Positions 6,800-59,830 of a stretch of DNA of 64,000 nucleotides are shown in pieces. Every line of letters begins with the position of its first letter. Position 1 is the stretch's first letter. The notes under the pieces are model-generated. The model saw only the letters and a program-made list of their open reading frames with translations. It was not told where the DNA came from and did not search any database. The DNA lies in contig JAALGZ010000026.1 in NCBI GenBank assembly GCA_015227615.1, forward strand, positions 310,001 to 374,000, read 5' to 3'. This DNA is from Labyrinthula sp. Ha. Lineage: Eukaryota; Sar; Bigyra; Labyrinthulida; Labyrinthulaceae. A program made the translations under genes and the position numbers.

Positions 6800-9700
6800 C
6801 TTAGAACACTACATCTCGCCAAAATATGACCCATTCATTTTATATCGATCACAGAAGAATTAAGATATAGATTACACCACCTAAATAAGCTAAAAGACAC
6901 AGATATAATATTAAATTTATCTCCTTTGGTAAATAAAAATGTTTTAAGCTTTGGTTTTTACGGGGTGCTGGAAACTTTATCAACGATTTTTTCAAAAATG
7001 CAGTATGATGGTCATAAAATCAACAATACTTTATTAGCTCTCGTAAAAACATCAAAACACAATTCAAACTGACCCTGGTACTTACTTGTATAGAAAAGTA
7101 GAGGATTAAAATAATAAAAATTATTGAAACACCATGATTACTAAAAATAACGCATATAATATTTTTTTTAGTTTTTTTCACGAATCTTCCTCAAATACAA
7201 TATTATCATCCACAATGTGTTTCATATTAAAAAACTTTTTCAACCATGTGTTTTTTTTCAGGTTATTTGATAAGGATAAGTACTTTAAACACTAAAAAAA
7301 GGCTAATTTTAAGGGTCTTTTTCACTAAGTTTATAGATCTCTAAAAACATACATTCAAGAGTAACATCACGAAAAACGACTCTATAGATGATCTGATTCT
7401 TCTCAGGTTCTAAGAATTTACCATAAATAACTTCTGAAATCATTTCTCAAGACGTTTTTTCTCTAATTAATTGCAAATTAGCTAAGATATACTCAGAAAA
7501 CTCAAATGTTGAAAATCTTCACATCTGAAAATACGAAATCACTCAGTTTTGCTATGATCCCTAAATTTTTGTCCTAGGGAGCCTCCAATAGCTTAAAACA
7601 TGGCCTATAACCTATATTTTTATTATTTGGAAAAATTTTAATGTTTTTTTTAAGTCGATATTGGGCTAAAATGCTGGTTTTCAACTTCAGTACGGGTAAT
7701 ACCTCACGAAATACATATCTAGAACATAAAGGAATTTCACTAGTAGAAAGATCAGGTCAATTTAGGTCTATAAGCAAGTTTATTTGAGAATTAAAGCATT
7801 CTGTATAGGCACCCTAACAATGTATCCTATTTCCAAGATCCCAGAAACTCTAAAAAAGGATACCCTTAAATGTCAAAAATATTCTTGAATGGGTGATACC
7901 AAGTAATGAAGCACTAAGAATAATATATTCTACCTGAATTTATAAATAATTTAGCGTCCTTCCGAGTTTTATTTGATGAACTTTAAGGAATTCCCCTTTT
8001 ATCTCGACAATTGTTATTTGGCTTAACTTAACTTTACTCTAAACTCAACTATAAGATGGTAAAAACTGAACTTATAATAAGCAAAATATCACAAACTTCA
8101 ACTCTAACCTTTTGTAAGAGCTAGTTTCAGTGCCTTAGAAAAGAAAAAAATTAAAGTTTGAAGTTTTTTATTAATTTTTATTATACAAATCTATGTCACA
8201 ATATTTAACGGTACTAAAGAAATATTATCTTTACCTTTACTCCTAATAAAGTATTTAAGAACAAATATTAATTGGTAAGAAAAACAGAATTATAAATTAT
8301 AGAAAATCTTTTTTTTTTGAATTTTTATTTAAAGTTTTACTGTTTTCATTTCTCTGTTATATTTATGAAGAAAGAGTGATGTTTTTGTTATTATAAGTTA
8401 AAAAACCTACCTTTTTTTTGCAAAAGTGCTTGTTATCATTTTAATTAAGAAAATTATACTCTAAATGACAAGTTTTATATTCTCTAACTCTGGGATTGAC
8501 TTATTTAAAAAGTCTCCTACACTTTGGTACCTTGATACTTATCTTATACCCCAAAAAATTCAATATTACATGATCACCAACACAATTAAACAACAAGCCA
8601 AGAAATGATCTACTAAAATAATTTATCTCCCATGTTTTTGAATGACTGTAGGAAGCCAAATTGTTTTTCATAACTTCTACCTTTATAATTTTATACTTCG
8701 CACTAGCTCTTTAGTCTTCCCTTCCCAGACACATCGCACTAGTATTGCAGACACGGAACTTTGTGATGATGTCACTATTGGACAAGAGGTGTAAGCTTTT
8801 TGCTCCTCGAGAAAGTGATCAGTTCAAGGATGTTGTTGAAGAAGTGCTGCTAGAGATGGATAAGGTCAAGAGCTTAGGTGGGAATTATTCAGTGACACAA
8901 GTATTGAAGAAAAACAAGTTAGATTCCATCATTTTGTTTGAAGGTACAAATAATTGCGGACCAGCTACCACTGTTGAGACAAGCCGTGGAGAGTTGGTAC
9001 GCTGTTTGGGTTTTGACGTCATTCCAGGAAATTTTGACCTTTTGATATGGTGGACAAATGTTGAACCAACACTTGCTAAGATGGCTAAGAAGTTATTCGT
9101 TATTCAAAAAAATAGCGCTAGTTCTGAATGAATCTTCACTCACGCCAGATTTAAATATATAAGGAAAGAAAATATGATGAGTGAAACTTTCATGGTGAGG
9201 ATGAACGCAGGAGAATGGATAAGATTATAAGTAGACATTAAAGTTACTTTTCACGGTTCTTTAAGCTGTTAGCACATGTTTTCTCCGTTTTTTTAACTGT
9301 TGAAAACCATTTTTTTCAGAATTTTCACTAATTTTTAACCTAGACTAATAAGAATTATGAATCTTTTTGAGAGCTTAGCACAGAAAAATCTAAAGATATA
9401 ATTAACAATTACTTCACGGTCGAAATATTTTGTTTTACTAGTCTCTCCCTTATCCTAATATTATAATTTCTTCTTAAAATAAAAAATGTCTCTCAGACAA
9501 TTCAACAAAGCGTAATCTCTAACAAGTAGACGACAACTAGTCTTGAACCTTCAGCGAACATGAGTTTGTTTCTTTCAAAAAACTATTTGCATTTATATGG
9601 CCACTACTTTTATGGTTTTTAATATAAGAAGTTTTTTGTGGACTTTTTTGTTTTTGGCTTTAACGAGGAAGAGAAAATTTCGAGTTAATTGAATTTCTCA

Positions 9701-12816: not shown

Positions 12817-12926
12817 TGTTGTAGTAAGTCTTTGGTTTTCTGGAGAAATTCTTAGTTAGTTAGTTGTTCTGTCCTAAACAGCCAATAGTACTGAAGACTA
12901 CAAGTTACTCACTAGCAACAACAACA
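12817..12926 (-). repeat. copia 3' LTR
   Basis: 110 bp, TG...CA termini with a 6-bp inverted end repeat; two differences from the 5' LTR. Very short for a copia LTR. Confidence 0.9.
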
Positions 12927-14386
12927 TCCTCTTCTTCTTCTGTACTGTTCTTTTTAGCACATGTCTTCATTAAAGCATCTCTGTGAATCTTTAACTTCGA
13001 AAATCCCAATGCTTTTGTGAACATGTCGGCCTGCAACTCATTAGTGTTTTTGTAACTAAGATTAATCTTTCCCATGTTAATCAACTCTTGCACAACATGA
13101 AACTTTAACTCAATGTGCTTGGTTCTGTCAAGACTTCCTTTGGAGCTTCCAATTAAGATTGCTCCCATGTTGTCATTGTAAACATTGATTGGCTTCGTGT
13201 ACTCCAACCCGAGAAACTCTAGAACATTAGCGATGTACCTGAGTGGTTTGGTAGCTTCTGCAATTCCAATGTACTCTGCCTCCGTAGATGACATTGCTGT
13301 TAACGGTTCCAACTTAGATCTGTACAAAATCGGTGCATTGTTAACCTTGATCACGTAGCCGTAAACTGATTTCTTCCTAGGTCCCATTGCAAATGATGCA
13401 TCAAGCACCATTTCAAGCTTTAGGGCGTCTTTACTATTGGTTTTGTAACACAGGCTCAAGTTCTTTGTGTCTACCAAGTACTTCATCACACGTCTAGCTA
13501 GCTTCAAATCAGTCGTCGTAGCACATGAAGTTCTTCTACTCATTGCATGAACAGCAAAACAAAGGTCAGGTCTAGTTCCTAAAGCAATGTGCAACAAACT
13601 TCCTAGAACAGATTGAAAAGGTCTAAGATCTTCTAGTGGTTTACCTGATGCATTCTCTAACTTAAGATTCTCTTGTAGTGGTACTTTAACACTCCTCTTC
13701 TCAAGATCAACTACCGCTTCAGCTTTCTCAATCTTCATTCGTTGATGAACATGAATGCCTCCTCTAGTGTAGTTCAACTCGAGTCCAAGAAACATCCTTG
13801 GATTCAGCTCTTTTCTTACCTCAAATCGTTGTTCCACCTGTTGCTCAAACTCATCCAACTCCACACTACTCTTTCCAACGTGTAGAATGTTATTCACAAA
13901 CAAACACAAAAACATTTTGTTTCGCTTGTACAGACATGGATCTACAGGGCAATTGACAAACCCAAGTTTTTTTAGAAACTCATCAATGCAAACATTCCAA
14001 TTCCTAGGTGAACTTCGAAGGCCGTAGATTGAGGATGTAGTTCTCCAACAGTTGCTGCCATCGTTCTTAGGATGTCCAGCAGGGAGTCTTAAGTAAACCT
14101 CTTTCTCAGACTTTCCGTAGAGGTAAGCATTTTTCACGTCCAAACTTCTGATCCTCCAACCCTTCGATGCAGCAACTGAGATCAACAACCTTACAATCTC
14201 AAAACGACCTGTTGGGGCGTAGTTGTCTTCATCATCAGCAGGTTTCTCTAGATCACCTCTTGCTGCAAGTTTAACTTTCTTTCTCATACTGTCTTTGATG
14301 GTGAACAACTCTTTCAATGGCAATGGTTTCACACCGGCAGAAACATCTCGCAACTGAACAACATCAAACTCGCCGATGTATTCCAA
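12905..14386 (-). pseudogene. copia reverse transcriptase and RNase H region
   Basis: Fossil pol part, the longest open piece of the copia element. The N-terminal reverse transcriptase half has LDVKNAYLYG and the copia hallmark YGLRSSPRNW; the C-terminal RNase H half contains SSTEAEYIGIAEA and the final DxFTK-type block DMFTKALG. In the family these enzymes copy the RNA genome and remove the RNA strand. The frame runs into the 3' LTR. Confidence 0.9.
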
Positions 14387-14961
14387 ACTTTTAACTTCTT
14401 GGTTGTACTGTGTTAACCATTCAGTTTTGGCTTTTCTTCCAGTGATTTGTGCAAAATTTTTAGAAGGAAGTAGTTAAAGAGACTTAGCAGTAAATCCAAC
14501 AGCATTGCGAACCCATTTCCCTTCATCTACGCTACCTGTATCAATTTCAGACCATCTAGGCCCAACTGGAACACTCTGAGGTATTGATTCATTAGTTTAG
14601 TGGTGTGGTTTACTTTCCTCTTCTTCTCTAGGTACATCAGTCTTGGCATCTACATCATTTGGCACAATTAAGCTAAATTCCGTACTCTTTTTTATTGAAA
14701 CTGCATCATTTTCGATGACCCGTTTGAAAAACCGACCAGACCGTGCAGTTCCTTTTTTTTAGTGTCTAGCCAGTAGACCAAGTACTCCCTGCCCTTCTAA
14801 CCCAAGAAGATTGCCTTTCTTCCTTTCATTTCACCTTTTTTCTGCTGTTTTCTACATCTAGTTGCACCCAATCTTTCAAATTCAGAGAGATGATCGGTTT
14901 GAGGTTTTCGTAGGTACATTAACTCAAAAAGAAGCTTCGCTTCCGTAGCTGCACGAGAAAA

Positions 14962-15678
14962 TTATCTGTTGTGCAAGTGTAAAAAACATTTAACAGCGTA
15001 AGACCAGTAATCAGCTGTCAATCCAGAGTCATTGAGTAGCACTTTGTAGCCATCCTGCAACGTGCGATTCCAACGTTGCACTGTCCCATTCATCGATGGA
15101 TGGCACTTTGGTGACACAACATGAACTACTCCCAGATTCTCAAGTTCTTCCTTCAGTGACGAGGTAACAAACTCGTTTCTTTGATCCGTCTTAAAGTTGA
15201 TCAGCTTCCTTGATATCAAATTGCTCATCCTCTCCAACCAAGCCTTAACCACTTCGGTTAATTGTGATTTCTTGCAAATGCAAAATGTACACTTGTACTT
15301 AGTGTAGTCATCAACAAGAGTTAGCATAAATTTGAACCCACTTTTCCCGATTGGCAACCGTCCAACAAGATCTGCATGTACTTTTTTAAAACTTCTAGTT
15401 GCTTTGAACTTGTGCACTCTTATCGTAACAGTGGTCATCTTTTCAGTCAACTTTCTTAAGTCACACTCTAAGCATTGATTGCATTTCTTGAGCATTTCTT
15501 TTGGAAGTCCATCAACCAATCCATGCTTCTGCATCTCCATCATTGTCTGGTAAGATGGATGTCCAAGCTTACGATGCCACTCCATGGTTGTGTCAGGTAT
15601 CGAACCTAGCTTTACAACATTAGTTTTGACTGTAAATGACAACCAGTACAGCTTGTTTTGACCTCTTTTAGCAACCAA
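14962..15678 (-). pseudogene. copia integrase region
   Basis: Fossil integrase part: the zinc-binding segment reads WHRKLGHPS with CNQCLEC downstream, followed by the catalytic core with VDDYTKY and the block around MNGTVQRWNRT that carries the family Glu. Between this and the RT region (14387-14961) only decayed integrase C-terminal sequence is seen. Confidence 0.85.
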
Positions 15679-15711
15679 CTTATGGGTTTTTGTTTCATCA
15701 ACAATCTCAGC

Positions 15712-31157: not shown

Positions 31158-33726
31158 ATGAAATCAATCAAAGAACAATATGAAGAAAGATATAATAAAA
31201 CATACTTCATAATTAAATGGTATTTTAGTTAACTAAATTATTCAAAGGGAATACGATAATGATGAAACTCCTATTAACCCAAACAAGTTCAAAAGGGAGA
31301 TAAAAGAATTTGTCAAAGGGTTCCAACCAACTCAAGGAGTGTCTTCAATATCGTATTCTATATTCTCTTATGCTTATGTTAGGTTTATATATTGTCCCTT
31401 TGATGTCCTTAAATCTATATTTTTAAGATTTATTCTTTGTTTTTCAGCTGTGAAAACACTTAGGTATTTTATTTTGTTTTCTTGATTTTAGTTTTTTGAA
31501 CTGCATGTTCAGTAAAAAGAACTATAAAAATTTTAAAGAACTTAAAAACCTAAAACTGTATAAATTGGAGTATATTTTCTTTGCATGCTTAATTTAGTTT
31601 TTCTTTTTGTATCATTCCTGAAGTTAGTTCTTTTTGCAGTTTGTTCAAATCAATCAGTATAAAATATATAAAGTAAAAATATTTTATATTATTATTTAGA
31701 CTATATCAAAACATCTTCAGTACAAAATATTTGTCAAATTTATTTAAAAGTTTATCTTTTAATAAAAATAGTTTAAAGGTAGAGTATTTATTATTAATAT
31801 ATTGAGTTTTTAGTATTAGAGAAAGAGTACAAGATAAAATTATTATTTCAGCTATTAAAAACATCTTGAAAACTAATAAAATAATAAAGAGTTTAAAATG
31901 TGGTGATAGCTCTCAATTCAAGAAGATTTCAGAAGAAGATATTATTGAGTTACAAGAAATAGTTGATTCACATCCTTCAATTCTTGGTCTTCAAGTTTAT
32001 GGAAGTTTTATTGAACCTAAAGGGAAAACTAAAATGTTAAAGAAACTTGTTCTTTTTGCTTTGTAAAATCAATATGAAATAAAAGAGGAAATAAAAGAAG
32101 TTCCAATTTTTCTTATGGGTATTCTATTTAGTTTAGTTTTATATTTAGGTGATGGAAGAACTGGAAAAACTTCTTTATTAAGAAACTTATCTGGAAAAAG
32201 TTTTCAAAAAGAAATTCAATCTACTTTGGTTTTGGAAGACTATCAAAAATTTCAAGTTAACAGGAAAAAGTTTAAACCACTTACAAAATATTATCTGACT
32301 GTGCAAAGAGTAAAGAATATGTTGACTATTCAACATAGTATTGAAGATGAAGTTCAAGAGAAGTCAAAATATAATTTAGAATTTGAAGAGGATTTGATTA
32401 CAAGAACTATAACAGAAAAAAGCTTTGTTGAACAATATACAGCAAGTATGTCTTCAGGTTTCAGAACTACAGATACTTTTTTACGGGTTTATGATTTTGG
32501 TGGACAAGAAGTTTTTTCTTCAGTTCATCATATTTTTATGAATAAAAAAGCTATTTATTTTGTTGTCTTTAATATGACAAAATTAAAAGAAAAAGATTTA
32601 TTTAGACTTAAATTCTGGTGTAAAAGTATTTTAAGAAATACCCCAAAAGCACCTGTTTTTTTATTGGAACTTTTTTAAATGCTTTTTTAAAGAAAAATAA
32701 AACACTTGAGAATATAAATTATAAGTTTGAATCCTTTCTTTATGAACTTTCTGTGAAGTTAACTATCATTGAAGATATAGAAACTATTTTTTTTCCCTGT
32801 TGAAAACACTGTTGATTCTAATAAGAGTCGTGAGAATGAAATAAAAAAGAAGTTAATCTATATACATAGATATACCTTACTTGATCAATATATACTAATT
32901 AAATCTGTTTATGCATTATTTTTGGATAATTGTCGTGAAGAATCAAGTTATATGACAGTTCAAAAGTTTAAACTAAAAGCTGAAAAATGTAACTTTTCTG
33001 AAAAAGAAATGGAAAAAATGTTAGAAATATATTCTAAAGAAGGAATTATTTCTTATTTTCCTGGTTTAAATTTATTTGATAGTGAAAATTTTATATTTTT
33101 TGCGCCTTCCTTTTTAGCTCAAGCTTTGGGAAGTTTTATTCGTGATGAAAGTTTTCATCAACTTGCTTTTAGAACAAATAAAAATGTATTTTCAAACTAT
33201 AGAAAATATATTGATACTGGAATAATAAGAAAAGATTTATTTGAAGTTTTATTAAAACAATATACAAAAAAAGAAAGGGAGTATGTTTTAAGCTTAGCTT
33301 TACATAGTCTAATTCTGTTTGTTGATCCAAGAGAAAAAAAACAGTTTTATTGTTCCTGAATTACTTCCTGAAGGAAAAGATAAAAAGTTGAAAGGATTTA
33401 AAGGAAGCAAAAAAGTAATAAAATTTGTTTCTCCCATCACCATAGCTAAATTTGTTAAAATTATCTCTTTGTTTCTTCAAGATAATAATATAGTTGAATC
33501 ACATATATTCAAATATTTTGCAAGGTTTATTTTTTCAGTAGAGAATATTTTGGATATTTATTTTATGGAAGAAAATAAAATAGTATTGAATTATATTGGA
33601 TATGAAATAAATAGTTTATTATGGACTAAAATTCAAAATATAGTTGAAGAAGAAAATACTTTTGAACAAGAAATTGAAGGAAAGCTTAATCTTAGTTTGA
33701 GCTTTCTCCTTAGAAGGTTAGGTTAA
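31158..33726 (+). pseudogene. Roco family gene, copy 2, broken
   Basis: Has the same five-exon plan as copy 1: introns 31220-31247 (28 nt), 31476-31491 (16), 31570-31597 (28), 31673-31699 (27), all GT-AG. Codon 32064-32066 is TAA where copies 1 and 3 have CAA. Frameshifts occur near 32660, 32795 and 33340, and about 40 nt are missing near 32850, so the ROC (GDGRTGKT, DFGGQ) and COR parts are present but no longer in one frame. From the P-loop to about 32600 it nearly equals copy 3; from about 32960 to the end and beyond it nearly equals copy 1, a mosaic pattern. Coordinates follow the end of the last COR frame. Confidence 0.8.
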
Positions 33727-42610: not shown

Positions 42611-42881
42611 TGTTAGTTCAAGTTTAAAATATAGGGACTGAGATAAATTCTTATTACTAGCTGTTCAAATACTTTTGAAATACGAGTACCTTGAAATATA
42701 AGCGGTTTAAGCGAATTAAGAGTTTAAAAAAATACAAAAAGAAAACTTATAACATTATATTTTGTTCTACTTTTACACAACAAACTACTTTGATAACAAG
42801 CCGATACTGTCGTTCTTTTGAAAATCCGTAGAATTTGTAGAAAGAAGTTTATTTTTGGGCTATAAACGAATATTGGTCAAT
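42611..42881 (+). repeat. chromovirus A 5' LTR
   Basis: About 271 bp, TG start. The 3' end is set where similarity to the 3' LTR stops (after TATTGGTCAAT), so it may be off by a few bases. Confidence 0.8.
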
Positions 42882-42917
42882 ATTCCCTTTGGCTTGATAT
42901 TTTCAAAGATTTAGAGA

Positions 42918-44426
42918 ATGTCTGGAGTAGATCAAAACAGGCTTACACGTCCTTTGAATCAGAAGCAGATACTGGTTCTTTATGAAAGTATGCAGAAGAC
43001 CTTGGATTCAACAAGAAGAGCTATAGAAGCTTTGCAGTTAAGTTCTAATGAAAAGCAATTGAGTAACATTACGCAGAATGTTGCGATGATTTGTCAGGAT
43101 TTCAAGGTCAATGATTTAAAAGTTCTCGAAAGAAAGAATGTAGAGAAGTTTATCTATCAATATGAGAGGTTTTCTTACAACAGAAAAGAAATATTGACTT
43201 GACTCAGTTCGTAGATTTGGATCTTTTTATTCACTTACGACGACTAGATGTTACTAGAACTAGTGAAGATCTCGTGGATTATTTAAAGATCCTATTATTG
43301 GAAATGAAAGAGCCTGTTTTGGAGGAAGCCCAAGTGAAGATCGCCAAACATGTGAAATACAACTTCAAACTAAGAGAGGAAGATGCGATAAAAGTTCTTT
43401 TTAGTGAAGTGCAGGAGATCATTAAGTTACAACCATCCACTGCAAGACTTAATAAGGAAGAGATTGCGTTAGCGATCTTTCCTAAATTGCCTAAATACAT
43501 CTGGGTAGTGCCTAGAAGGCTTAGTTGGAATCCTGCTTTAACCGATGTTGACCACGTGCGATTACAACAATATGTGCTGGAGTGTTTGCCTCCGCTGTGT
43601 GTAAGAAATGAGATAAAAAACGAGTCAACTTTAAGAGGATCCAGTTAGGAAAGTTCAAAGAAAGTGCTCCTATTGAGGCGAGCGAGGTGAATAACAAGGG
43701 AGAGAGGAAATAAAACTCTCATTTCAAGAAGCAATCTTCTAATGATGAACCAGACTTATGTAATCATTGCTGGTCTTATGGAAATAGAAGTTTTAAGTAC
43801 TGGATGAGGTTAAAACTTATTAGGAATGGAAATAAGAATCCATCCTCGCAGCCCAAACCAAATGGAGAGGTTTTAAGGAAGAGATTGCTAAAGTGGAAAG
43901 AGAATAAAAAGAAGGGCCGCAACGGTAATTTTAAGAAACTGGTCGAGAAGTCCACGTTTGCATCCAATGAAGTGACGCCGGCTAATGAAGGCGCAGTTGA
44001 GGATGCAGAGATCGACATTATTGGAGTCATTCCTACAGGATCGGTCGATGAGATATTTTTAAGTGAATGTACTGATGTAGCAAATGTAGAAGTATGGGAT
44101 GTAGCGGAAAAAATGAGATTAATCATGTCGAAGCTGAACTTGTTTTAGAAACCAGAAAAGGCCCGATAGTGGCGGACGGCATTTTAGATTCTGGAGCTAG
44201 AAAAACCTCGGGGGCAAGAAATTTATTTGAAAAGTTCCGCTGGAAGATAGATGATATCAAGAGGAAGACATTTGCGAGAGTGGCCTCTGGGAATTTGTAT
44301 CACGTTTTTAAGATTGGTCATTTACTACCCTCGGTAAGGATTCCAGGGTTCGGAGATTATTCGCTGGGACCTGTGGCAGTGCTGCTAGTCGAACAAGTGA
44401 GTAACTGGACGAAACTTTTAATATGA
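42918..44426 (+). pseudogene. chromovirus A gag and protease region
   Basis: Fossil gag begins MSGVDQNRLTRPLNQ and is helix-rich; around 43760 there is a Cys/His segment (CNHCWSYGNRSF) in the place of a zinc knuckle, followed by a Lys-rich stretch. The aspartic protease region holds VADGILDSGARKTSG near 44170. Element B has matching blocks. Confidence 0.7.
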
Positions 44427-44721
44427 AAAGAGGTTCTAAAACTCCATGGTCTTGATCCTACGCAGATTTTAGCTCGACTATTAAGGAACACAGGAAATGG
44501 AAGATCTTCTAAACTAACTGAAAAGGTTGAGAAATCAGTGAAATCTTTCAAAGAAACATGTGAAGTCAATGAGTGTATTACAGTAGAAGAAGTTTATTTA
44601 GCGAACTGGTTCAAGAGCAAGGTTTTATTGACATTGAATTTGATGTCGTCAATGCAATGGCGATTAATCCACATGTTTTAGCGAGCCTGGTATTGAGAAT
44701 CCATTAGAGTTACAAAAAGGA

Positions 44722-46650
44722 ATGGTAGAAGCATTTGCAGTAGAAGAAAATAAAATAAGATTTGAAGAAGGAGGTGCGTGGCCGGAGCCAATGGTATTTA
44801 ATGATAGGCATGATGCAGAGCTAGAGGAATTAACTGGTGTTGGAGAAAATTTAGAGGTTACCAGAGAAGCAGATTTAATGAGATTGAAAGTTTTGCTGAA
44901 GCGAAGATTAAAGGAAATACCTGCTCAAATATTTGGTGAAGATAAGAAGTTAAAAATGGAATTTGATGACTTGATTTTACACCATGTAGCCGCTTTTGGC
45001 GATGATTTATCCCCAACTCAATTATTTCTTCTAAAACCTATAAGATGTTCTTTAATGGATGGAACATCAGTGGGAGTTTTTAATGCGATCGCCCTTGGTA
45101 TCGAAAAAGAGGAGTTCATGAAGAAAAGAGTGGACCAGATGATAAAAAATAAAATTGTTGAGGTTAATGATGACCCAACAACATGTATGAGAGCTTTTGT
45201 TGTTCCAAAAAAAGGGCCTAAAAAATACCGAATGGAAGTTGATTTCAGGCCATTAAAAGCAGTTACGCAAAAGGTTGTCAATAACCTACCGAATATTGAT
45301 CTACAGGTCGCAAAGATAAAAGGAAACACTATCTTTGGATCATTCGACCTGTTAAGCGGGTTTGATTATTTACCAACACATCATAACTCGCAGCATTTAT
45401 TTACCTTTGGAACACCTTGGGGTGTGTCTTACTCGTTTAGAGGAGCCCCCCAAGGTTGGTGTAATACCCCATCTTTATTTTCTCAAAGGGTAATTACACA
45501 TGTTTTAACACCTGCATCTCTTTGGCCTAATCATGCTTTACAATGGATTGATGATACAGTTTTATTTGCATTGGATGTAAGAGCATACATGACTTTATTA
45601 AGGAGTTTCTTAAAGGCTATTATAGATAAGAGATTGAGGCTAAATATAGGAAAATGTGACCTGATTGCTCAGAGTGCAGTATTTTGTGGGCACAAGTTGA
45701 CAAAGGATTGTTATCGTTTAGATGACACTTATTTAAAAAAGTTAATGGAAAGACCAAAACCTACCTATGTGCATGAATTAGCACAGCTGATTTATTTAGG
45801 GAACTGGGTCTCAAAGATGTTACCGGGTTTTTCGGAGTTAAGAAAAAGAATGACCGGGGAGTTTAATATTTACGGAAGACTCAAGAAGTTAGAAAGAACA
45901 AAAGTGCCCTTGGAATGGAGCGAGGAAATGAATCATGCTTACGAAAAGTTAATGAAGGAGGTTAAATTGGCTTTCTCTAGTACATTAGGCTACTGCGACC
46001 AGAAGTTAGACCTGGTTTTATTTGTGGATGCTTCGGAATTTTACTGGAGTTATTTTATTTGTCAAACATCTGATGCAATTAAATTAGAATTTCCAATGGA
46101 TGCTAACTATGATGTGATTGCCATGGCTTCAGGTACGTTTAGAGATAGTTCCTTAAATTGGCATATTTCTTCGAAGGAGTTATTTCCAGTGGTGATTGCA
46201 TCACAGAAGCATTCTTATTTTCTGAAATCAAATGAGAAGAAGAAGATTCTCTTTACGGGCCACAAGAATCTATATTATATTTTGAATCCAATCAAAGCGT
46301 TTAGGAAGTCTTATTCTGAAAGGCTGACGCATTGGAGCTTGATTTTTCAAGACATTTGTTTGGAAGTACATCATATTCCTGGAGAGCAGAATGTAGTTGC
46401 TGACATTTTATCTCGCTGGCTTAACCCTGAATTTGATAGGGTGGAAGCTGATCAAGTGTTAGCTGCAGTAGCAACTGTAGAACATTTTAATGAACAGAAT
46501 TTCTGGGAAAAAGTGGATGAACTTCATGCTGGTTTACGTAACATAGATTTTACATTGAAATATGGAGATGCCTGGCCCGAAATGGATGAATCATTTTGCT
46601 TAAATTTACAAAAGAAGGATCTAAAGTTCAAAGAAAATATTTTGAGATAA
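44722..46650 (+). pseudogene. chromovirus A reverse transcriptase and RNase H region
   Basis: Fossil pol part, open over 642 codons. Reverse transcriptase motifs: FDLLSGFDYLP, FRGAPQGWCNTPSLFS and LQWIDDTVLFA. RNase H motifs: LVLFVDASEFYWSYF, the Glu in SSKELFPVV, and NVVADILSRW. The Trp-Ile-Asp-Asp form of the catalytic block, in place of the common Tyr-Val-Asp-Asp, is shared with element B. Confidence 0.9.
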
Positions 46651-48101
46651 TATAAAAATTAGCTGGTGGTAACAAAAAGTTTGATTTTACCAGTGATTGT
46701 TCATACATATCTACACTTTAATCACGGGGCAGTGGATCAGGAAAAGAAATGGATTTCAGCTAATTATGTTATACACTCTAAAGAAGTAAAAAAATATTTA
46801 TGGAAGCTACGAAAAAATTAAGAAGTCAATGTTTACATTGTCAACGTCCATCGAAAATAATAAGGAGACCCTTAGCGATTAATGAATTACCAAGTGAATG
46901 TAGAGCAGTTCTAATGTCAGATTATTTGTATGTTTCACCAGAGGAAGGTCATGTGTTGACTTTAATAGATGCGTTATCAAGAGTTACTTTATTGAAGCAG
47001 TGTAAGAATGCTAATGCAACAAATGTTGTAAATATTTTATGGGAATGACATTCTCACTACGATTTAGCTGATGACTTTATTTTATTATCTGACAAGGGCT
47101 CACATTATGTTAATGCAGTTGTAGATGCTTTTGTTAGGCAAAATGGAGCAAGTCAGAAGTTGACGGTGGCTTATACTCCTTACACTGATGGAGCTGCAGA
47201 AATACAAAATAAGCAGATCTTGAAGAATTTGAGAATCTTGCTTTCAGAATATAATTTGAAGGCTGAAGATTGGCCTGAGGTTTTAGTGCAGGTACAATAT
47301 TACCTTAATTCGAAGCCATTGAGAAGTAGAAATAATCTTACACCCTTCCAGATTTTGCTGGGTAAGAAACCTAGAAGGGATCCAGTGGGGCGAAAGCCAA
47401 ATTTGAAATTGACATCAATTCAAATGAGTAAGTTTAAAGAAGTTTCGCTGGAGGTAGAAGGAAGAATAAGAGAGTACCAAGAAATACCTTTTTCATTCGC
47501 TGAACGATCAAGACAATATGCTAATGCTTTGTACAATAAGAAATACAAACTAACTCCGATATATTTTCATGTGGGAGAGTTTGTATTAGTCAGTAAACCA
47601 AAACGTGGTTCGAAGGTTAAACCTCAATGGGCAGGACCATTTCAGATCAATCAACAATTAGGGTCATATTTATATTTATTGAAGAATTTATTCGGGGATG
47701 AAGAAGAAGTACATGCATCTAGAATGATGTTTTATGCTCCATCACACTTTTTACCTTCTGCAAAAACAAAGATTTGTTATTTAAATGACTCAAAAAAGCT
47801 TGAGATTAAGAAGTTGATTAAGACCAAGAAAAAGGATGATCAATATTTTCTGTTAGTTCATTGGAGAGGATTTTCATTAGAAGAGTCGACATGGGAACCA
47901 GTACAACAGTTATTTGAGGATTTGCCGAGTTTAGTGGTTGATTTTCTATTGAAGAATAAATTCAGTGGAATGAAAGCATGTCTAACCCGATTACGATTGG
48001 CAAATCCAGAAGCAGAAATATGGAGCACAGATAAATATAATGTAGATCTTTGTGATTTGCATCTTACTGACAAAGAATTAGATGATTTCTTGAGTTTCTA
48101 A
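46651..48101 (+). pseudogene. chromovirus A integrase and chromodomain region
   Basis: Fossil integrase: zinc segment ending CLHCQRPS (~46835), catalytic core with ALSRVTLLKQC and the block DGAAEIQNKQILKNLR (~47190), then the GPF-type segment QWAGPFQIN (~47630). A chromodomain follows (~47800-47940) with LLVHWRGFSLEESTWEP, the aromatic and Trp pattern of chromodomains that bind methylated histone tails. This places the element among chromoviruses. Confidence 0.85.
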
Positions 48102-48116
48102 CCAGTCAGTCAGTTT

Positions 48117-49360
48117 ATGATTCACATGTTTAATCCGCTGTTACGATGGAACAAAATCGAAGTTTACATCTTGAAACAATGTATTTTGAAGTTTGCATTT
48201 TCTAAGTATGGGAAGTATGCTGAGTTTCTCAAGAATATGGTACAAAGACAGATTTACAGTCAATTGCAGCGCCTGGTAGGTAAACAGGCCATTTCTGTTT
48301 ACTCGAATTTACAGCTTGATGTGGATGAAGTACGAAAAGACAATGTTAAATCTCATGGGGCTAAGTATTTTTTTGGGAAGGAGTTTAATGGAGAAACTCA
48401 TTTATTCAAGTTACGAATTTTTACTGCCATACGTTATGCGAAAATGCATAGATTGAATACAAAACGAGCTGAAAAAGTTGATCTAATGAAGTATTTTAAT
48501 TGCAGTTCGGCTAATGGTATTGGACAGTTTATAAAGTTTATGGAAGAAAAAGGTGAAGTAGCATCCTTTCCTCTTGTAAATTAGTTTAATGTTGATAAAG
48601 AAGTGCAATGCTGGAAAAAGAAATTCAGGGAAATTAGCAGATTCGGAGCAGCAATGGCTAAGAAGAAAATAGAAGTTGTTAGGGCTGTTGATGCAATGAG
48701 AGATGATTTGCAATGTGATAAATTGGTTCCTGATTCTAAACATGGTTTTGATGTAAAAAGAACTATATTGACAAATTTGTATGAGTTTAGAAAGGAGAAT
48801 TTTATGATGCAGCATTGGATTATACATCCTAGAGTGAAGTTCTTCCATGGTGATGTAAATGATTTTATTTAAAAGTTTGATGGTGGTGTTTTTGAGGTTG
48901 TACATTTGGATCCCCCATATCGATTTATGCCAAAGAATCCGATTAGGGGGCATCTAATTTTTACGATAACATGTCAGATCATGATTTAATGAAGTTGAAT
49001 TTTACGAGACTAATGAAAAATACAATTGTTTTTCTTTGGACCATTCCAAGTAAGAAGTCTTTAGCCATGGATATTTTCAAGAAGAATAATATTAAATACA
49101 TGGATCACTTGTTGTGGTTTAAACTTTCTGCTAAATGGAAATTGCGATCCACGTTTTGTAAGCTTACTCAGAAGTGTAGTGAAGAATTGTTAATTGGTGT
49201 CCATGGGAAGTTGCCAGATGCTTTGAAAAATAGGAACTTTGGTAAAGAATGTGTCTTCGCAGAAGTGGTAGGCAACAGCTGTAAACCAGAGAAGTTCTAT
49301 GAAATTATTGAAGTACGGTTTGAAAAGCAAGCTAAAAAGTTGGACCTCTTTAGCAGATAA
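48117..49360 (+). pseudogene. MT-A70-like N6-adenine methyltransferase module of chromovirus A
   Basis: Fossil module between chromodomain and 3' LTR. Its C-terminal part carries, in MT-A70 order, VVHLDPPYRFMPK (~48895; the family's DPPW-type catalytic motif), MSDHDLMKL, VFLWTIPSK, DHLLWFKLSAKW, CSEELLIGVHGK, a Lys-Pro motif before FYEIIEV, and KLDLFSR at the end. In known MT-A70 enzymes (METTL3, METTL4, ciliate MTA1) the DPPW motif and flanking loops place the adenine N6 for transfer from S-adenosylmethionine. The N-terminal ~250 codons are specific to this family and also occur in element B. It is in three open pieces. The downstream text NNLRLGWLAVGNE is also conserved in B. Substrate (DNA or RNA) cannot be told. 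Confidence 0.8.
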
Positions 49361-49422
49361 AATAATCTTCGTTTAGGATGGTTAGCTGTTGGGAACGAGC
49401 TCTAGTAACAAGAATGGGGCAG

Positions 49423-49520
49423 CGTTAGTTTAAGTTTGAAATATATGGACTGAAATAAATTCTTATTACTAGCTGTTCAAATACTTTTGAAATATGAGTA
49501 CCTTGAAATATAAGCGGTTT
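49423..49520 (+). repeat. chromovirus A 3' LTR, first part
   Basis: Matches 42611-42708 at about 92 of 98 positions; cut at GGTTT by the insertion 49521-50185. Confidence 0.85.
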
Positions 49521-50185
49521 ATTGCACTTTACGTCTTCTTAATGTATGATCTTAAGACGTCCGCGGAAAGGAATACACAACTTGACCAGAATACTTTAAA
49601 ATTTTGATATCAGAAATATAGATCTCTAACTCCTTATATATATAAAATCGTTCACGAATAAAACTTTTCTTCTTTTTTAAAAAAAACTTCTTCAAATTAT
49701 TCGTATTAACAGTTAGTTTTTCACTAAAAAATCCCAAGTATGTGAAAACGTAATATATTTCAAACTATTTCCAATACCGAAATTGATGAGTTAGATCAGT
49801 ATCATAGTGTATCCCTTCCTATGAATCCCTCTCATATTATTCCATATCAATCGTGACTAACAATATCTCATTTCAAATTCTTATCAACAAATGTAAATTC
49901 ACAGCATAAAAACATCAGTATACAAACCACCCCCAGTTCTCATCACGGGCGAATAATATCACCAAATACGAACCAGAAAAGACTGGAATCAGGGTTCTCA
50001 AATCACATTAACCTTCCCATTCTCTTCAATAAACACCTCAATAAGTGTCATAAACAACTATTTATCACATTAAATCTCTCAGGCAACCTTCTTATACCAA
50101 AATAACATTCTTAGAGACAAAATTTCACACTCCAAACACAAGAATCTTCACAAGCTGAAAATATATAACAGTGGAACACACAACA
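49521..50185. mobile_element. 665-bp insertion inside the 3' LTR of chromovirus A
   Basis: The LTR is interrupted here and resumes at 50191. The 5-bp sequence GGTTT is present on both sides (49516-49520 and 50186-50190), a target-site duplication. The insert starts ATTGCACTTTACG, ends GGAACACACAACA, has no terminal inverted repeats and no coding potential, and carries a hairpin near its left end (49531-49560, ACGTCTT..AAGACGT). It may be a solo LTR or a non-autonomous element of unknown family. Confidence 0.75.
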
Positions 50186-50190
50186 GGTTT

Positions 50191-50364
50191 AAGCGAATTA
50201 AGAGTTTAAGAAAATACAAAAAGAAAACTTATAGCTTTATATTTTATTCTACTTTTAAACAGCAAACTACTTTGAGAACAAGCCGATACTGTCATCCTTT
50301 TGAAAGTCCGTAGAATTTGTAGAAAGAAGTTTATTTTTTAGACAATAAACGAATATTGATCAAT
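50191..50364 (+). repeat. chromovirus A 3' LTR, second part
   Basis: Matches 42709-42881, about 91% identical by eye. Confidence 0.85.
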
Positions 50365-50462: not shown

Positions 50463-53022
50463 ATGAAATCAATCAAACAGCAATATGAATAAAGAAATGA
50501 TAAAAGAGAGTTTAGAATTGAATGGTATCTTAATTAACTAAATTACTCTAAGGGAATACGATGATGAATATAATCCTATTAACCCAGAAAAGTTCAAAAG
50601 GGATATAAAAGAGTTTGTCAAAGGGTTCCAACCAACTCAAGAAGTGTCTTCTATATCGTATACTATATTCTTTTATTCTTATGTTAGGTTTGAATATTGT
50701 CCATTTCATGCTCTTAAATCTATATTTTTAAGATTTATTCTTTGTTTTCCAGCTGTGAAAGAACTGAGGTATTTTATTTTGTTTTCTTGACTTTAGTTTT
50801 CTTAGTTGCAGATTCAGTAACAAGAACTTTAGAATCCTTCAAAAACTTAAAAAAGTAAAACTGAATAAATTGTTGTATATTTTGTTTATATATTTAGTTT
50901 AGTTTTTCTGTTTGTAATATTCCTGAAGTGAATTCTTTTTGTAGTTTAATAAAATCAATCAATATAAAAGATATACAGTAAGAATATTTTTTATTATTAT
51001 TTAGACTACTTATAAACAACTTCAGTGCAAAATATATACCTAATATATTTAAAAGTTTATCTTCTAATAAACATATTTTAAAAATATAGTATTTCTTATC
51101 AAAATATTGAGTTATTAGTATTTATGAAGATATTCAAAATAAAGTTGTTATTTCAGCTATAAAAAACTTATTGAAAACTAATAAAATAATAAAAAGTTTG
51201 AATTATATTTATTCTGGAAGATCTATAAAGCTGTCAGAAAAAGATATTATGGAGTTACAAGAAATAGTTGATTCACATCCTTCTATTCTTGGTCTTCAAA
51301 TTTATCAAAGTTTTATTGAACCTAAAGGAAAAAGTGAAATACTAAAAAAACTTGTTCTTTCTGCTTTACAAAGTCAATATGAAGAAGAAGAGTTGTTAAG
51401 AGAAGTTTCAGTTATTCTTATGGGTGTTTTATTTAGTTTAGTTTTATTTCTTAGGTGATGGAAGAACTGGAAAAACTTCTTTATTAAGAAACTTATCTGG
51501 AAAAAGTTTTCAAAAAGAAATTCAATCTACTTTGGTTTTGGAAGACTATCAAATATTTCAAGTTAACAGGAAAAAGTTTAAACCACTTACAAAATATTAT
51601 CTGACTGTGCAAAGAGTAAAGAATATGTTGACTATTCAACATAGTATTGAAGATGAAGTTCAAGAGAAGTCAAAATATAATTTAGAATTTGAAGAGGATT
51701 TGATTACAAGAACTATAACAGAAAAAAGCTTTGTTGAACAATATACAGCAAGTATGTCTTCAGGTTTCAGAACTACAGATACTTTTTTACGTGTTTATGA
51801 TTTTGGTGGACAAGAAGTTTTTTCTTCAGTTCATCATATTTTTATGAATAAGAAAGCTAGTTATTTAGTTGTTTTTAATATGACAAAATTAAATGAAAAA
51901 GATTTATTTAGACTTAAATTTTGGTGTGAAAGTATTTTAAGAAATACTCCAAAAGCACCTGTTTTATTTATTGGAACTTTTTTAAATACTTTTTTAAGGA
52001 AAAATAAAACATTTGACATTGTAAATTATAAGTTTGAATCCTTTTTGTATAAGCTTTCTGGGAAGTTAAATATTGTTGAAGATGAAAAAACTTTTTTCTT
52101 TCCTGTTGAAAATGCTGTTGATTCTTATAAGAGTCGTGAAAAGGCAATAATAGAGAAGTTAATGAACCTATATGGCTATAGCTCAAAGTTAAATAACTTA
52201 TTTGGTCAATTTATTTCGATCAAATCTGTTTACGTATTGTTTTTGGATAATTGTCGTGAAGAATCAAGTTATATGACAGTTCAAAAGTTTAAACTAAAAG
52301 CTAAAAAGTGTAATTTTTCTGAAGAGGAAATGGAAGAAATGTTAGAAACATATTCTAATGAAGGAATTATTTCTTATTTCAAAGATCTAAATTTATCTGA
52401 AAGTGAAAATTTTATATTTTTTGCACCTTCTTTCTTAGCTCAAGCTTTGGGAAGTTTTATTCGTGATGAAACGTTTCATCAACTTGCTTTTAGAACAAAT
52501 AAAAAAGTATTTTCAAATTATAGAGAATATATTGATACTGGAATAATAAGAAAAGATTTATTTGAAGTTTTATTAAAACAATATACAAGAAAACAAAGAG
52601 AATATGTTTTAAGTTTAGCTTTACATAGTTTAATTCTATTTGTTGATCCAAGAGAAAAAAATAGTTTTATTGTTCCAGAATTACTTCCTGAAGGAAAAGA
52701 TAAAAAGTTGAAAGGATTTAAAGGAAGCAAAAAAGTAATAAAATTTGTTTCTCCCATCACCATAGCTACATTTGTTAGAATTATCTCTTGGTGTCTTGAA
52801 GATAATAATATAGTTGAATCACATATATTCAAATATTTTGCAAGGTTTATTTTTTCAGTAGAGAATATTTTGGATATATTTTTTGTGGAAGAAAATAAAA
52901 TAGTATTGAATTATATTGGATATGAAATAAATAGTTTATTTTGGACTAAAATTCAAAATATTGTAGAAGAAGAAGATACTTTTGGACAAGAAATTGAAGA
53001 GAAATATCGTTCTTATTTCTGA
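50463..53022 (+). pseudogene. Roco family gene, copy 3, broken
   Basis: Five-exon plan as in copy 1: introns 50525-50552 (28 nt), 50781-50796 (16), 50875-50902 (28), 50978-51004 (27), all GT-AG and in phase. Exon 1 has TAA at 50490-50492 where copies 1 and 2 have GAA, and an extra base near 51450, just before the P-loop GDGRTGKT, shifts the frame. After that the ROC (DFGGQ) and COR parts are open to 53022, ending in TGA about 12 codons earlier than copy 1. Chromovirus A ends 98 bp upstream of it and chromovirus B starts 190 bp downstream. Confidence 0.8.
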
Positions 53023-53455: not shown

Positions 53456-54572
53456 TTGCCCCAATATCTCTGAAGTTAGAAACCCACTTGATTCCCAACA
53501 GTTAACCAGCCTCTTCTTAGGTTGTTATTTCTCCCAAATAACTCCCATTTAACAGCATTATTATTGAAAATGTTCTCAATTATCTGATAAAGTTCAACCG
53601 GTTCTTCTAAATTTCCTCTTCTTACTCCATAAAAAACTACTTTTCCAATAAATCTTTTTTCTAAGGTATCAGGAAACTATCCTCTTAAAACAATTAACAC
53701 ATCTTCAGTACAAGCTCCAGTCACATTTCCAAGTGTAGATAAAATTCTTCCATCTTCATTAACTTTCACCCAAATAAGTCTGCTTAAAATTTTATCCCAT
53801 TTTCTGCAATCCAATTAAGTACTAACTTTCTTTTCTTAAATATAGCCCATACAAACCACATATTATTTGGTGGTAATCCATTAACATCCAAGTATAAAAT
53901 GGCAACATCATCCAAAACATAGTATTCAAATTTAGGTCCTCTTACAGGATCAGAAGAAAACATCTCAAAATTAAGGTCCACAATCAAAACATATGGTTTC
54001 TCTTTTTGATTAACGATAAAATCTTGAACATCTTTATTAATGTATCTCGAACCACGTGGTCTTTTCCAAATATAAAACTCCACATTAAGTTCTTGATTAA
54101 CTGCATGAACCATGTTGATTGTCTTAGACCATTTCAGCTGGTATCCTCTAATAAAAACTTCAACTCCCTCAAACTCATTTTTAATAATGACTTTTAGTTC
54201 TTCAAAACCTTCTGAAACATCATGCAAACGTTTAGAATATCCTTTAATACACCACTTAATCTGTTGTCTAAACTCGGTCAAATCACCGTTATACTCAGGA
54301 TATTTATCCCATGTACCTTCGTCAGCAATCACCCGAGAAACTTCGGAATATAATTGTTTCAATCCTTCAATTGAAAATACATCGTATACCACAAGTTTCA
54401 TCTTAAAGTTTTTGCTATTGTTTTCTATATGTTGTTCAGCATATCTCCACACATTAAAGAATCTCTTCATGCATTTAGATCCATCATCAAGAGACTTCTT
54501 ATTTTTTAAAAAATATTTTCCAGCTTTTAATTTTTTTCTCACTACATCTAAATCAATTTTAAGGTCGTTCAA
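53456..54572 (-). pseudogene. MT-A70-like methyltransferase module of chromovirus B
   Basis: Fossil module between chromodomain and 3' LTR. The 262-codon open piece (54572-53784) aligns with the N-terminal and middle parts of the module in A, for example IDLDVVRKKLKAGKYFLKN against LQLDVDEVRKDNVKSHGAK, and DPVRGPKFEYYVLDDVAIL against NPIRGHLIFTD plus NMSDHDLMK. The C-terminal part continues to ~53470 in broken form, with blocks like ELYQIIENIF and NNLRRGWLTVGN that mirror A. The catalytic signature is clear in A but not in B. Presence in both elements shows the module belongs to this retroelement lineage. Confidence 0.7.
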
Positions 54573-54874
54573 ATGTTCTAAACTTTGTCTTCTTAAATAT
54601 CTTTGACGGTAATTATAATTTGTTGCTTGGATTTTCTAGGTAACCACCTTTTGAACTCAACAAAGTTTCCCATACCAAACTTTGCAACTAAAATCTTCAA
54701 AGTATAAGCTTCAAACAAAGACTAAGAATATTGAATCATAATACCTCCAGCAATAACTATTAATTTTTGACTTAGTAACTTATGCACTAGATCCTCAAAA
54801 TTTTCACGGGTATGCCCCATCTTAAGTTACACAATTCAACTCTGATCTGTATTTTGCTTCACGGTATAATAACT

Positions 54875-56121
54875 TCAATAACTGCACCAATTCTTTAACA
54901 AGAATATTATTTTTATTTTTCCCATATATGTTAATAGTATCAACGGAACATCTTCATACATTATGACTGCCAACTCCCAAATGTTTCTATCATCGTCGAA
55001 TCCTCTCCACTTGACACTAACTAGAAACTGATTCTCTGCTGTTTTCTTCAAGTCTACAATAGAATCAACTTCCAGTTTGCCTTTATCTAGAATAAAAACC
55101 ACAGTAGTGTCTGGAGATGGTAAAAATGAACTTGGAGCAAATGGCACTAAAAAAGATGTATGTCTGATCTTCGTATTTCCCATCAAATCTTTAACTTCAA
55201 ATAAGTGCTCCGAAATCTGCATAGTTAATTGATAAGGTCCAGACCATCTAGGACGACTTTTGTCCTTCTGCATATTTCCTAAACCTTTCTCCGACAACCA
55301 GACGTATTCACCTAAATTGAATTGAATGGGAGTAAGTCTTTTTCCTCTTCTCTTATTCGCCACATATCTATATTCGAGTCCTTTTTATATGCTGTATCTT
55401 GATAGTCTGCTATTTTCTTAGATAATTCTGCGCTTTTCTGTTTCAAAAGATCTAAATCTTTCTCTTTCACCTTCAAATTACCAGATCCTATTGTTGCAAA
55501 CTTCACATCTTCACCATAAATAAGTTCAAAATTAGACTTGTTAGGATATCCACGACAAGTAAGTAGGTTAGAGTTCAAGAATCCTTGAACTAAGGTTAAA
55601 ATACGAGGCCATTGATCCTCTTTCAATCCGAACTCGGATACCAATGATCTCAAGTTCTTCAAAACAGACTTATTTTGAACTTCAACTGTTCCTGCTGTTT
55701 GAATAATATAAGCTATAGTCATTTTATGTAACCCATTGCTTTCTTTCAGAAACTTGGTTACAACCGTATTTACAAAATGACTGCCTTGATCCGTTACTAA
55801 GAAAAACTCATCGGCTAAAATAAAATGTGAATGCCATTTCCAAAGGACATCCACTACAACTTCAGCGTTAGAAGTTTTTGTATAAGTCAATAAAGTCAAC
55901 CTTGTCAAACTATCAATTAAAGTCAATACCCAACCATGTGCATTGATGTATAAAAAGCACGCATATAAAACCTTGCGAGCTTTATCCCCAAACTCGGTTA
56001 TATTCAGGGGTCTTCTGATTATTAAAGATATTTCTTCGCAGTGCATACACTGCTTTCTAAACCTAGTAATGGTTTTATTTAAAAGCTCTTTATCTTCAGC
56101 TTTAATTACATAATTCTTCAC
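54875..56121 (-). pseudogene. chromovirus B integrase and chromodomain region
   Basis: Fossil integrase with zinc segment MHCEEIS, core ADEFFLVTDQGSHFVNT and the block GTVEVQNKSVLKNLRSLVSE, then a GPF-type segment (WSGPYQLTMQI) and a chromodomain with FLVSVKWRGFDDDRNIWEL. In two overlapping open pieces. Confidence 0.85.
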
Positions 56122-56286
56122 ATTATAATTCCATTCAAATTTTCTTGCCCCATGATTAAAAACTAAATGAGCATGACAAACAGCTACTGGAATTAAACTT
56201 CTAGTTAAAACTATTTTTTAATTTTCTTTTAGAACTTCAAATAGTGAAGGAATATCTTTCTTTTGATATTAAATACAAATAAATCA

Positions 56287-58379: not shown

Positions 58380-59830
58380 TCTTTTTATTAAGTTTTTACC
58401 TCAGAGACGTTAAGGGATCCAACCCATGAGCTCTTAATTGATCATTACCTATGATCAAATCATCCCACTGGGGTAAATCCATGAGCATAAACTCAACATT
58501 CGTAAGAGTGTAGAAGCCACCGTATAAACGGACAATAACCTTGGCCAGAATACCAAGTTCAAATACTCAACAAATCCTTCCCCCAGCAACTATTATAACC
58601 AATGGGTTATCAAGGGTAATTGTCTTAGAACAATATTTTCTAAGACGCAGATTCATAGCACTTTTGAAAGCTCTACTGTCCAAAGGTGATGTGTATTTTT
58701 CTCCACCTTCTTCAAAATACACTTCAACTTCTGCATCCTCATCTAATTCACTATAATCATAAATGTGTCCAGCATGGATCATATTAGGTTTAAGTACCGT
58801 TGTACTTTTTATCACATTCAGTTTTTTAGGGTTGAAAAGAGTTCTTCAAACAGCTTTTTTACCAGTAAAAGGTTGAATATCTGTTGCTGGTTCCAACAGC
58901 GGCCCAGAAAGCACAGATTCGGCGATATTTTCTTTGCCATTAATATCTAGTTGGCTTCCAGGTTTCAAGATGTTACCATCTGATTGACCCCCAACTCTGG
59001 CAGCTAACTTTTTCGCCGCTCTTCTTTTCCTTCTTTTCTCCTTATATTTTTCCCACTTTTGCCTTAATTCTGGCTCTGTTGGGATAGCAGATTTTGGATT
59101 GCCACTTCTTTTCGCAAAACCTTTAGCTTCCTTGTGACTGTATTCATAACAATGAGTACACAAGTTAGCAATTAAAAGCTTAGAAGGCATCTTCTGGCCC
59201 AAAGTATCTACAGCTTTAACTTTAACCTTTGGTTTGGATTTCTTACTTTTAGTTTTGTTCATAGATTTAAACCTAGATATGACATGAAGAGGTGGGAGAC
59301 TGTCGAGAACGTAATCCATTAAAGCATCTCTATTCCTCTGCTTCAACTCCGGCTTAAGCCTCAAGTCTTCTTTTCTAACCCGTATATAATTGGGAAATTT
59401 CTCAAAAATAACTTCAGCAATAAGTCTGGGCATCATTTCAGCCCCTGATGCCATGATCTCCAATAATTCATCCATTTCTTTAAACATAATGACAATTGCT
59501 TCTTCTTCAAGAATATCTTCGTTAAAATAAATATATTTTTTAATTGAGTCCTCAGCAGACCTTCAATTTTTTTTCTTCTCCTGTTGCACCTTTTCTTTTA
59601 AATAAGTAATAATGTCCAGATCTGTATCTGTCTTTCGTAGAAACTTAAGTTGTTGAAATACTTTTCTAAATAACCTTTGAGCTACAGAAATAAGACCCTT
59701 CCGTTCTTGATTTAGCCTTTCATATTGATATACAAAATCTTCTATATCATCAATATTTAAACTGTCCAACTCATTGAGTTTTACCAGACTGAAATCCTTA
59801 AAAGTATTTGTGTTTCCAAGACACCTGCCA
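58380..59830 (-). pseudogene. chromovirus B gag and protease region
   Basis: Fossil gag (59830-58846) with a Cys/His segment (CTHCYEYSHKEAKGF) and a basic stretch (KEKRRKRRAAKKL); the protease-like block PLDSRAFKSAMN lies near 58680. It matches the corresponding part of A in order and length. Confidence 0.65.

Follow-up and report, generated by a model that had tools for sequence, protein, structure and literature searches.

A decayed copy of a Ty3/gypsy-type element is found at positions 42611 to about 49521 of the window, that is, of the whole stretch of 64,000 nucleotides of the Labyrinthula sp. Ha genome analysed here, which lies in contig C73. Its features, together with those of a second element on the opposite strand, are given in Table 1. 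The protease motif LDSGA was identified in the frame 44076-44423 and has its equivalent at residue 425 of the intact relative L031; two pieces of the gag/protease region of the window copy gave no match when compared with Pfam. The rve profile, weak in the integrase of this copy, gives stronger matches in intact relatives (2e-06 in L031, which is below the cut-off, and above the cut-off in L032 and L033).

Table 1. Features of the two chromodomain elements in the window (L031 is an intact relative).
Feature	Position in window	Strand	Evidence or remark
5' LTR	42611-42872	+	92.0% to L031 3' LTR; opens a 95.4% alignment with L031 (6918 columns); direct-repeat families D1 and D2
Gag/protease region, broken frames	42915-44426	+	Open reading frame list
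Reverse transcriptase and RNase H	44668-46647	+	Pfam RVT_1 2.6e-19 (about 45202-45696); RT_RNaseH 3.3e-12 (about 46000-46353)
Integrase, two frames (46782-47048; from 47049)	46782-47790	+	Pfam rve weak, 0.21
Chromodomain	about 47802-47942	+	PF00385 (Chromo) E = 7.8e-08; C73:357802-357945
p1-like (Myb/HTH) domain	about 48111-48425	+	Own profile, 122.3 bits
MT-A70 domain, two frames (about 48843-48959; 48920-49393)	about 48843-49393	+	PF05063 and own profile pieces
3' LTR start, broken off at 49521	49424-49521	+	96.9% to L031 5' LTR
Further LTR-like piece	50186-50364	+	93.9% to L031 433-611, i.e. beyond the end of the L031 5' LTR (602)
Second, more decayed chromodomain element	53493-56217	-	Integrase-like frame 55312-56217
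MT-A70 pieces of second element	about 53493-54041	-	
p1-like piece of second element	about 54610-54727	-	
Chromodomain of second element	54965-55072	-	
Gag-like frame near second element, further up	58846-59562	-	

The first-pass annotation had proposed an MT-A70-type adenine methyltransferase in the 3' portion of the element from a series of short landmarks, and these are all present: DPPY at 48909-48920, and SDHDL, LWTIPSK, CSEELLIGVHGK, FYEIIEV and LDLFSR in the frame 48947-49357. The 137-residue piece encoded by this frame matches PF05063 on its own (E = 6.9e-16, 59.1 bits against a cut-off of 23.9), and a chance match of motifs was ruled out by the E-values and the copy number. The domain is interrupted in the window copy by a TAA at 48870 and by a change of frame after the DPPY. 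The order that had been described, with the methyltransferase after the integrase and chromodomain and before the 3' LTR, is the one found, although its intact version is seen in other copies and the 3' LTR is recognisable here only at 49424-49521. The whole interval 48117-49360 had been taken as the methyltransferase module; this holds for its 3' part, whereas a distinct p1-like DNA-binding domain occupies the 5' part (about 48111-48425).

Beyond the broken 3' LTR, the further LTR-like piece continues into sequence resembling the interior of the element, which indicates that the right end of the window element has been rearranged. With broken frames in gag, integrase and methyltransferase, and LTR pieces that differ by 3-8% from the intact relative, the window copy is dead.

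Elsewhere in the window, frames at 12905-15711 on the minus strand resemble by eye a Ty1/copia-type element, and the MT-A70 profile lists nothing there. Three similar frames of the Roc-COR (ROCO) GTPase type were also observed (10445-12517, 32067-32678 and 51442-53022), the first and third of which were tested against Pfam.

Intact copies and occurrence in the genome

In five other copies (L031 to L035) gag and pol form a single uninterrupted frame of 2107-2363 codons with the MT-A70 domain at its end. The order of domains in these frames, each compared with Pfam in two halves, is reverse transcriptase (RT), RNase H, integrase (some rve matches falling below the cut-off), chromodomain and C-terminal MT-A70. 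The latter scores 72-124 bits against PF05063, above the cut-off, and one such domain was seen per intact element, separated from the chromodomain by 308-460 residues. The chromodomain profile PF00385 is matched in all five, four times above the cut-off and once, in L035, below it (18.5 against 25.1 bits). From their LTRs, the RT-RNase H-integrase order and the chromodomain, the window element and its relatives are chromodomain LTR retrotransposons of the Ty3/gypsy type.

The two LTRs of a copy are 99.2% identical over 263 bp in L031, 99.7% over 364 bp in L032, 100% over 443 bp in L034 and 99.8% over 441 bp in L035, and because these pairs are nearly identical the four insertions must be young. 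The pair of L033 is 94% identical, its second LTR reaching the end of the contig. Target duplications of four bases (CATA, GTGC, TAAC and TATG) were read by eye in L031, L032, L034 and L035. The frame of L031 ends at 7136 and its 3' LTR starts at 7157. In L034 and L035 the only retropepsin motif of the DSG type, LLDSGA, lies between the chromodomain and MT-A70 (residues 1984 and 1903, respectively) and not before the RT, with weak support from Pfam; a protease relocated in this way would be unusual.

The assembly surveyed comprises 50.8 Mb in 153 contigs. A search with the PF05063 profile, in which the best 150 of 354 candidates were scored, placed all 150 above the curated cut-off, and three merged profile searches gave at least 231 distinct MT-A70 places, one of which is the host's own AMT1 gene. 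By hand count, 32 of these at least 231 places fall in frames 1700 codons long or longer, the match itself being free of stops. Cytosine methylases (PF00145), on the other hand, have only two places in the genome (C77:362853-363845 and C121:1129060-1130208) against more than 200 for MT-A70.

Of 148 chromodomain matches, 111 are followed on the same strand by a listed MT-A70 place, at a distance of 886-1452 bp downstream, and inspection of 20 of the remaining 37 loci revealed an MT-A70 domain in 17 of them, which gives 128 of the 131 matches examined. Two of the three exceptions (L079 and L080), in which no MT-A70 was found, are truncated, either inside the p1-like stretch or beyond it, and the third (L073) stops at a contig end. 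The 17 matches left out of this count include several that are partial and resemble host genes, and three with a match to P0012 downstream. The first-pass annotation had proposed a search of the reading pieces against PF05063 and a survey of the other copies of the element; PF05063 is the sole Pfam family matched at E <= 0.001 by the 14 representative domains, all of which hit it, and the module occupies the equivalent place in the copies just enumerated, so that its interpretation as an MT-A70 borne by a retroelement is supported.

Some MT-A70 places were observed about one element length apart on the same strand (C62:563513/570328, C132:959661/966637 and C132:835214/842454). This spacing points to copies arranged in tandem, which perhaps share an LTR.

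Relatives of the p1-like and MT-A70 domains

Between the chromodomain and the MT-A70 domain there is a conserved helix-turn-helix-like stretch. A profile built from it finds all 83 MT-bearing sequences tested (82 loci and the window, five places being doubled), weakly in some copies of the L035 type (21.2 bits in L048). The cut-off of Myb_DNA-binding (PF00249) is not reached, four of ten pieces matching weakly with a best score of 24.3 against 24.4 bits. Compared with the PDB, the profile finds as its best match p1 of the MTA1 6mA complex (E = 8.1e-17), followed by c-Myb (4.3e-11), p2 being weak (0.0035). The alignment with p1 spans profile positions 6-76, passing beyond the Myb core through GQQS...GL.ID, whereas that with c-Myb spans only 5-53; a generic Myb domain was rejected, since the fit to p1 is both better and longer. 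The p1 segment from the PDB also finds the window copy directly, at C73:358147-358350, i.e. 48147-48350 of the window (E = 9.5e-06, 38% identity).

When the genome was searched with the p1 segment (best 150 of 316 candidates), two host genes came first, with 44% and 46% identity, followed by copies of the elements. MT-A70 lies 121-1087 bp downstream on the same strand in 139 of these best 150 places, some positions being approximate; besides the two host candidates, nine have no listed MT-A70 downstream. One host candidate, L091, has p1 as its sole PDB match at E <= 0.001, and aligns with the linkers of L034 (32% over 134 amino acids, E = 6e-20), L035 (31% over 127 residues) and L033 (34% over 76). 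The p1-like domains of the elements do not form a supported single clade (62/0). These matches show that the linker is homologous to p1, the DNA-binding subunit of the AMT1/MTA1 6mA complex. No p1-like match was found in the 1501 bases surrounding the host AMT1, and the two host p1 candidates lack an MT-A70 match within the 801 and 701 bases of sequence around them. The host AMT1 and the p1 candidates are thus separate genes, and the elements combine p1-like and AMT1-like parts, placed after a chromodomain, in a single polyprotein.

The profile of 14 element MT-A70 domains scores highest in the PDB with MTA1 (AMT1), at 208.5 bits, followed by METTL3 (138.4), METTL14 (84.8), 7cv6 (66.3) and MTA9 (45.5). 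Among solved proteins the domain is therefore nearest to MTA1/AMT1, the eukaryotic writer of 6mA in DNA, and not to METTL3. The chains of the MTA1 complex are presumably those of Tetrahymena (PMC9852454).

In the tree, the element domains cluster among MT-A70 references from eukaryotes, and 30 other MT-A70 proteins from the databases are set apart from them (100/99). With the host AMT1 (L089) included, and with references that lack AMT2/5, most element families group with the host and PDB AMT1 (96/92), and the clade of L034 and L035 falls outside this group with weak support (83/47). A single clade for all element domains is borderline rejected (p-AU 0.0466), which is compatible with one capture or with two. 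The host and PDB AMT1 are sisters (92/85), from which it follows that the element domain is no recent copy of the present host gene. Moreover the RT splits as the methyltransferase does, L034 and L035 against L031, L032 and L033, with 29-34% RT identity across the split, and this parallel fits a long joint descent.

P0008 and P0012 were considered as possible host enzymes and rejected, as their best places lie inside copies of chromodomain elements (P0008 on C104, with the chromodomain upstream, and the 95% twin of P0012 on C99, likewise). A phage or viral source was also rejected: one weak phage match was obtained (E = 5e-6), viral contigs gave no confirmed relative, and the 30 database MT-A70 proteins form a separate clade. 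In the protein databases searched, which are protein sets of limited sensitivity, no close relatives were found outside EukProt. EukProt holds one MT-A70 domain row identical to one of this genome and three at zero tree distance, and its source must accordingly be the same or a very near species. A metagenome contig of 1259 bases in ENA encodes a 209-amino-acid MT-A70 protein (P0011) that is nearer to the elements than other metagenome matches are, with weak support; possibly it represents part of a related element from a different organism.

These relationships bear on what the enzyme would methylate. MT-A70 domains include RNA enzymes, and the module might be a writer of m6A on the genomic RNA or mRNA of the element, acting in the manner of METTL3-METTL14 to control translation, packaging or decay. 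METTL3 is indeed the second-best solved relative, and a place within AMT1 is not secure for the L034/L035 clade. Nevertheless MTA1 scores 70 bits above METTL3 and the adjoining domain is a homologue of p1, which PMC9852454 describes as belonging to the DNA 6mA complex, and we consider an RNA writer unlikely. 6mA in DNA is favoured as the putative product because the nearest solved relative is a catalytic domain of AMT1 type and a DNA-binding domain of p1 type stands in the same polyprotein.

Conservation of the methyltransferase

The catalytic tetrad was read in an alignment of 79 MT-A70 domain rows, in which five places are present under two locus names. It is DPPW in 25 rows and DPPY in 24 (49 of 79 together), DPAW in 18, and another motif or missing in 12. 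At the level of families the DPPW-type motif is retained in most, the L035 type excepted. Thirteen columns are invariant over the 14 representative domains, among them the D and the first P of the motif. The ratio pN/pS is 0.11-0.23 for the domain (11 family sets, some sharing rows) and 0.13-0.35 for the region upstream of it in stop-free copies (8 sets), which shows that the methyltransferase is under purifying selection.

Known MT-A70 complexes include one dead partner (PMC9852454), and the domain of the elements could likewise be catalytically silent, serving in DNA binding or dimerisation as METTL14 or MTA9 do. The lineage with DPAW, which lacks the second proline, would agree with such a role; it is a single lineage (the L035 type, all 18 rows), and its domain is under purifying selection as well (pN/pS 0.18). 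Loss of catalysis in general seems improbable, given that 49 of the 79 rows keep DPPW or DPPY, in contrast to the eroded NALW reported for MTA9 (PMC9852454), and given the invariant columns.

That the module is a mere passenger, host AMT1/p1 sequence that one element picked up and carries along unused, or an assembly artefact at a junction, as the decay of the window copy itself might suggest, is hardly credible in view of the at least 231 places, the five uninterrupted frames, the purifying selection on the domain, its presence in families whose RTs are only 29-34% identical, and the matching rows in EukProt, an independent gene set.

Possible role and comparison with known systems

We consider it likely that the window holds a decayed copy of a large and long-lived group of chromodomain LTR retrotransposons whose polyprotein ends in integrase, chromodomain, p1-like domain and AMT1-like MT-A70, and which carries its own 6mA writer to pre-mark new copies as active; the activity, the substrate and the benefit are what we infer. 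Carried by the polyprotein, this writer would enter the nucleus along with the integration complex, and there the p1-like domain would grip DNA and the MT-A70 domain would methylate adenines (in ApT, if it is AMT1-like) on the new copy or around the insertion site. The new copy, pre-marked as active, would then stay transcribed where the chromodomain had placed the element. Several points count against this reading: the DPAW motif of the L035 type, the weakly supported position of the L034/L035 clade relative to AMT1, the borderline rejection of a single element clade, and the fact that in ciliates AMT1 works with a second MT-A70 protein (MTA9/AMT7), whereas one MT-A70 domain per intact element was seen here. 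Pre-marking as active is suggested because AMT1-dependent 6mA, which is mainly at ApT, is described as going with transcriptionally permissive chromatin across eukaryotes (PMC12695648).

A wider proposal can be put forward more tentatively, namely that this lineage captured a 6mA core (AMT1 and p1), joined it to a reader of histone marks and kept the combination through deep diversification as a read-and-write device that marks new copies active. As the copies number in the hundreds and a single host AMT1 was recognised, the elements could possibly be the main source of AMT1-type enzyme and shape the whole 6mA landscape of the genome.

Chromoviruses are the chromodomain-bearing members of Ty3/gypsy, with LTRs, the order RT-RH-IN and a chromodomain after the integrase. 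The elements described here share all of these characters, but differ by the addition of the linker of 308-460 residues and the MT-A70 domain, and in L034 and L035 by the LLDSGA motif placed after the chromodomain instead of before the RT. The first-pass annotation knew of no Ty3/gypsy chromovirus with an MT-A70 domain, and we likewise found no report of MT-A70 in an LTR element in the literature searched, which was covered at the level of titles and abstract openings, preprints and most subscription papers being outside its scope.

Retroelements with other methyltransferases have been described. Captured cytosine methyltransferases occur in Gypsy, LINE and DIRS elements, and Dam-like enzymes in DIRS elements also (PMC5890265). 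One close parallel is KnitGypsy-Dnmt3 of Klebsormidium nitens (de Mendoza et al. 2018, PMC5890265), a Gypsy LTR element whose Pol frame encodes a eukaryotic DNA methyltransferase, the key residues kept and Ka/Ks below 0.2. Its enzyme, however, belongs to the Dnmt3 cytosine methyltransferases, which are not related to MT-A70, and the description available in that source mentions neither a further subunit of a host pathway nor a chromodomain. The DIRS elements with a Dam-like enzyme, as cited in the same source, also combine a retroelement with an adenine methyltransferase, but they have a tyrosine recombinase and a Dam of bacterial type, whereas the elements here have an integrase and an MT-A70 of eukaryotic type.

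The AMT1/MTA1 complex is described as consisting of MTA1, MTA9, p1 and p2 (PMC9852454, PMC12695648). Like the elements it has a DPPW catalytic domain and a DNA-binding domain of p1 type; unlike them it is made of separate host proteins, whereas the elements have one polyprotein behind a chromodomain, with a weak p2 match and no second MT-A70 seen in the intact frames. As far as the literature searched reaches, no case has been described in which a eukaryotic 6mA pathway was captured with its catalytic and DNA-binding parts united in a single polyprotein.

In a recent survey (PMC12695648) the MT-A70 families are described as "relatively static" over the evolution of eukaryotes; the genome studied here, through its mobile elements, departs strikingly from that picture. 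The elements offer a natural single-chain arrangement of AMT1 and p1 for work on structure and activity. Moreover, with young and old related copies and with intact and broken writers in one genome, they allow a direct test of the role of 6mA.
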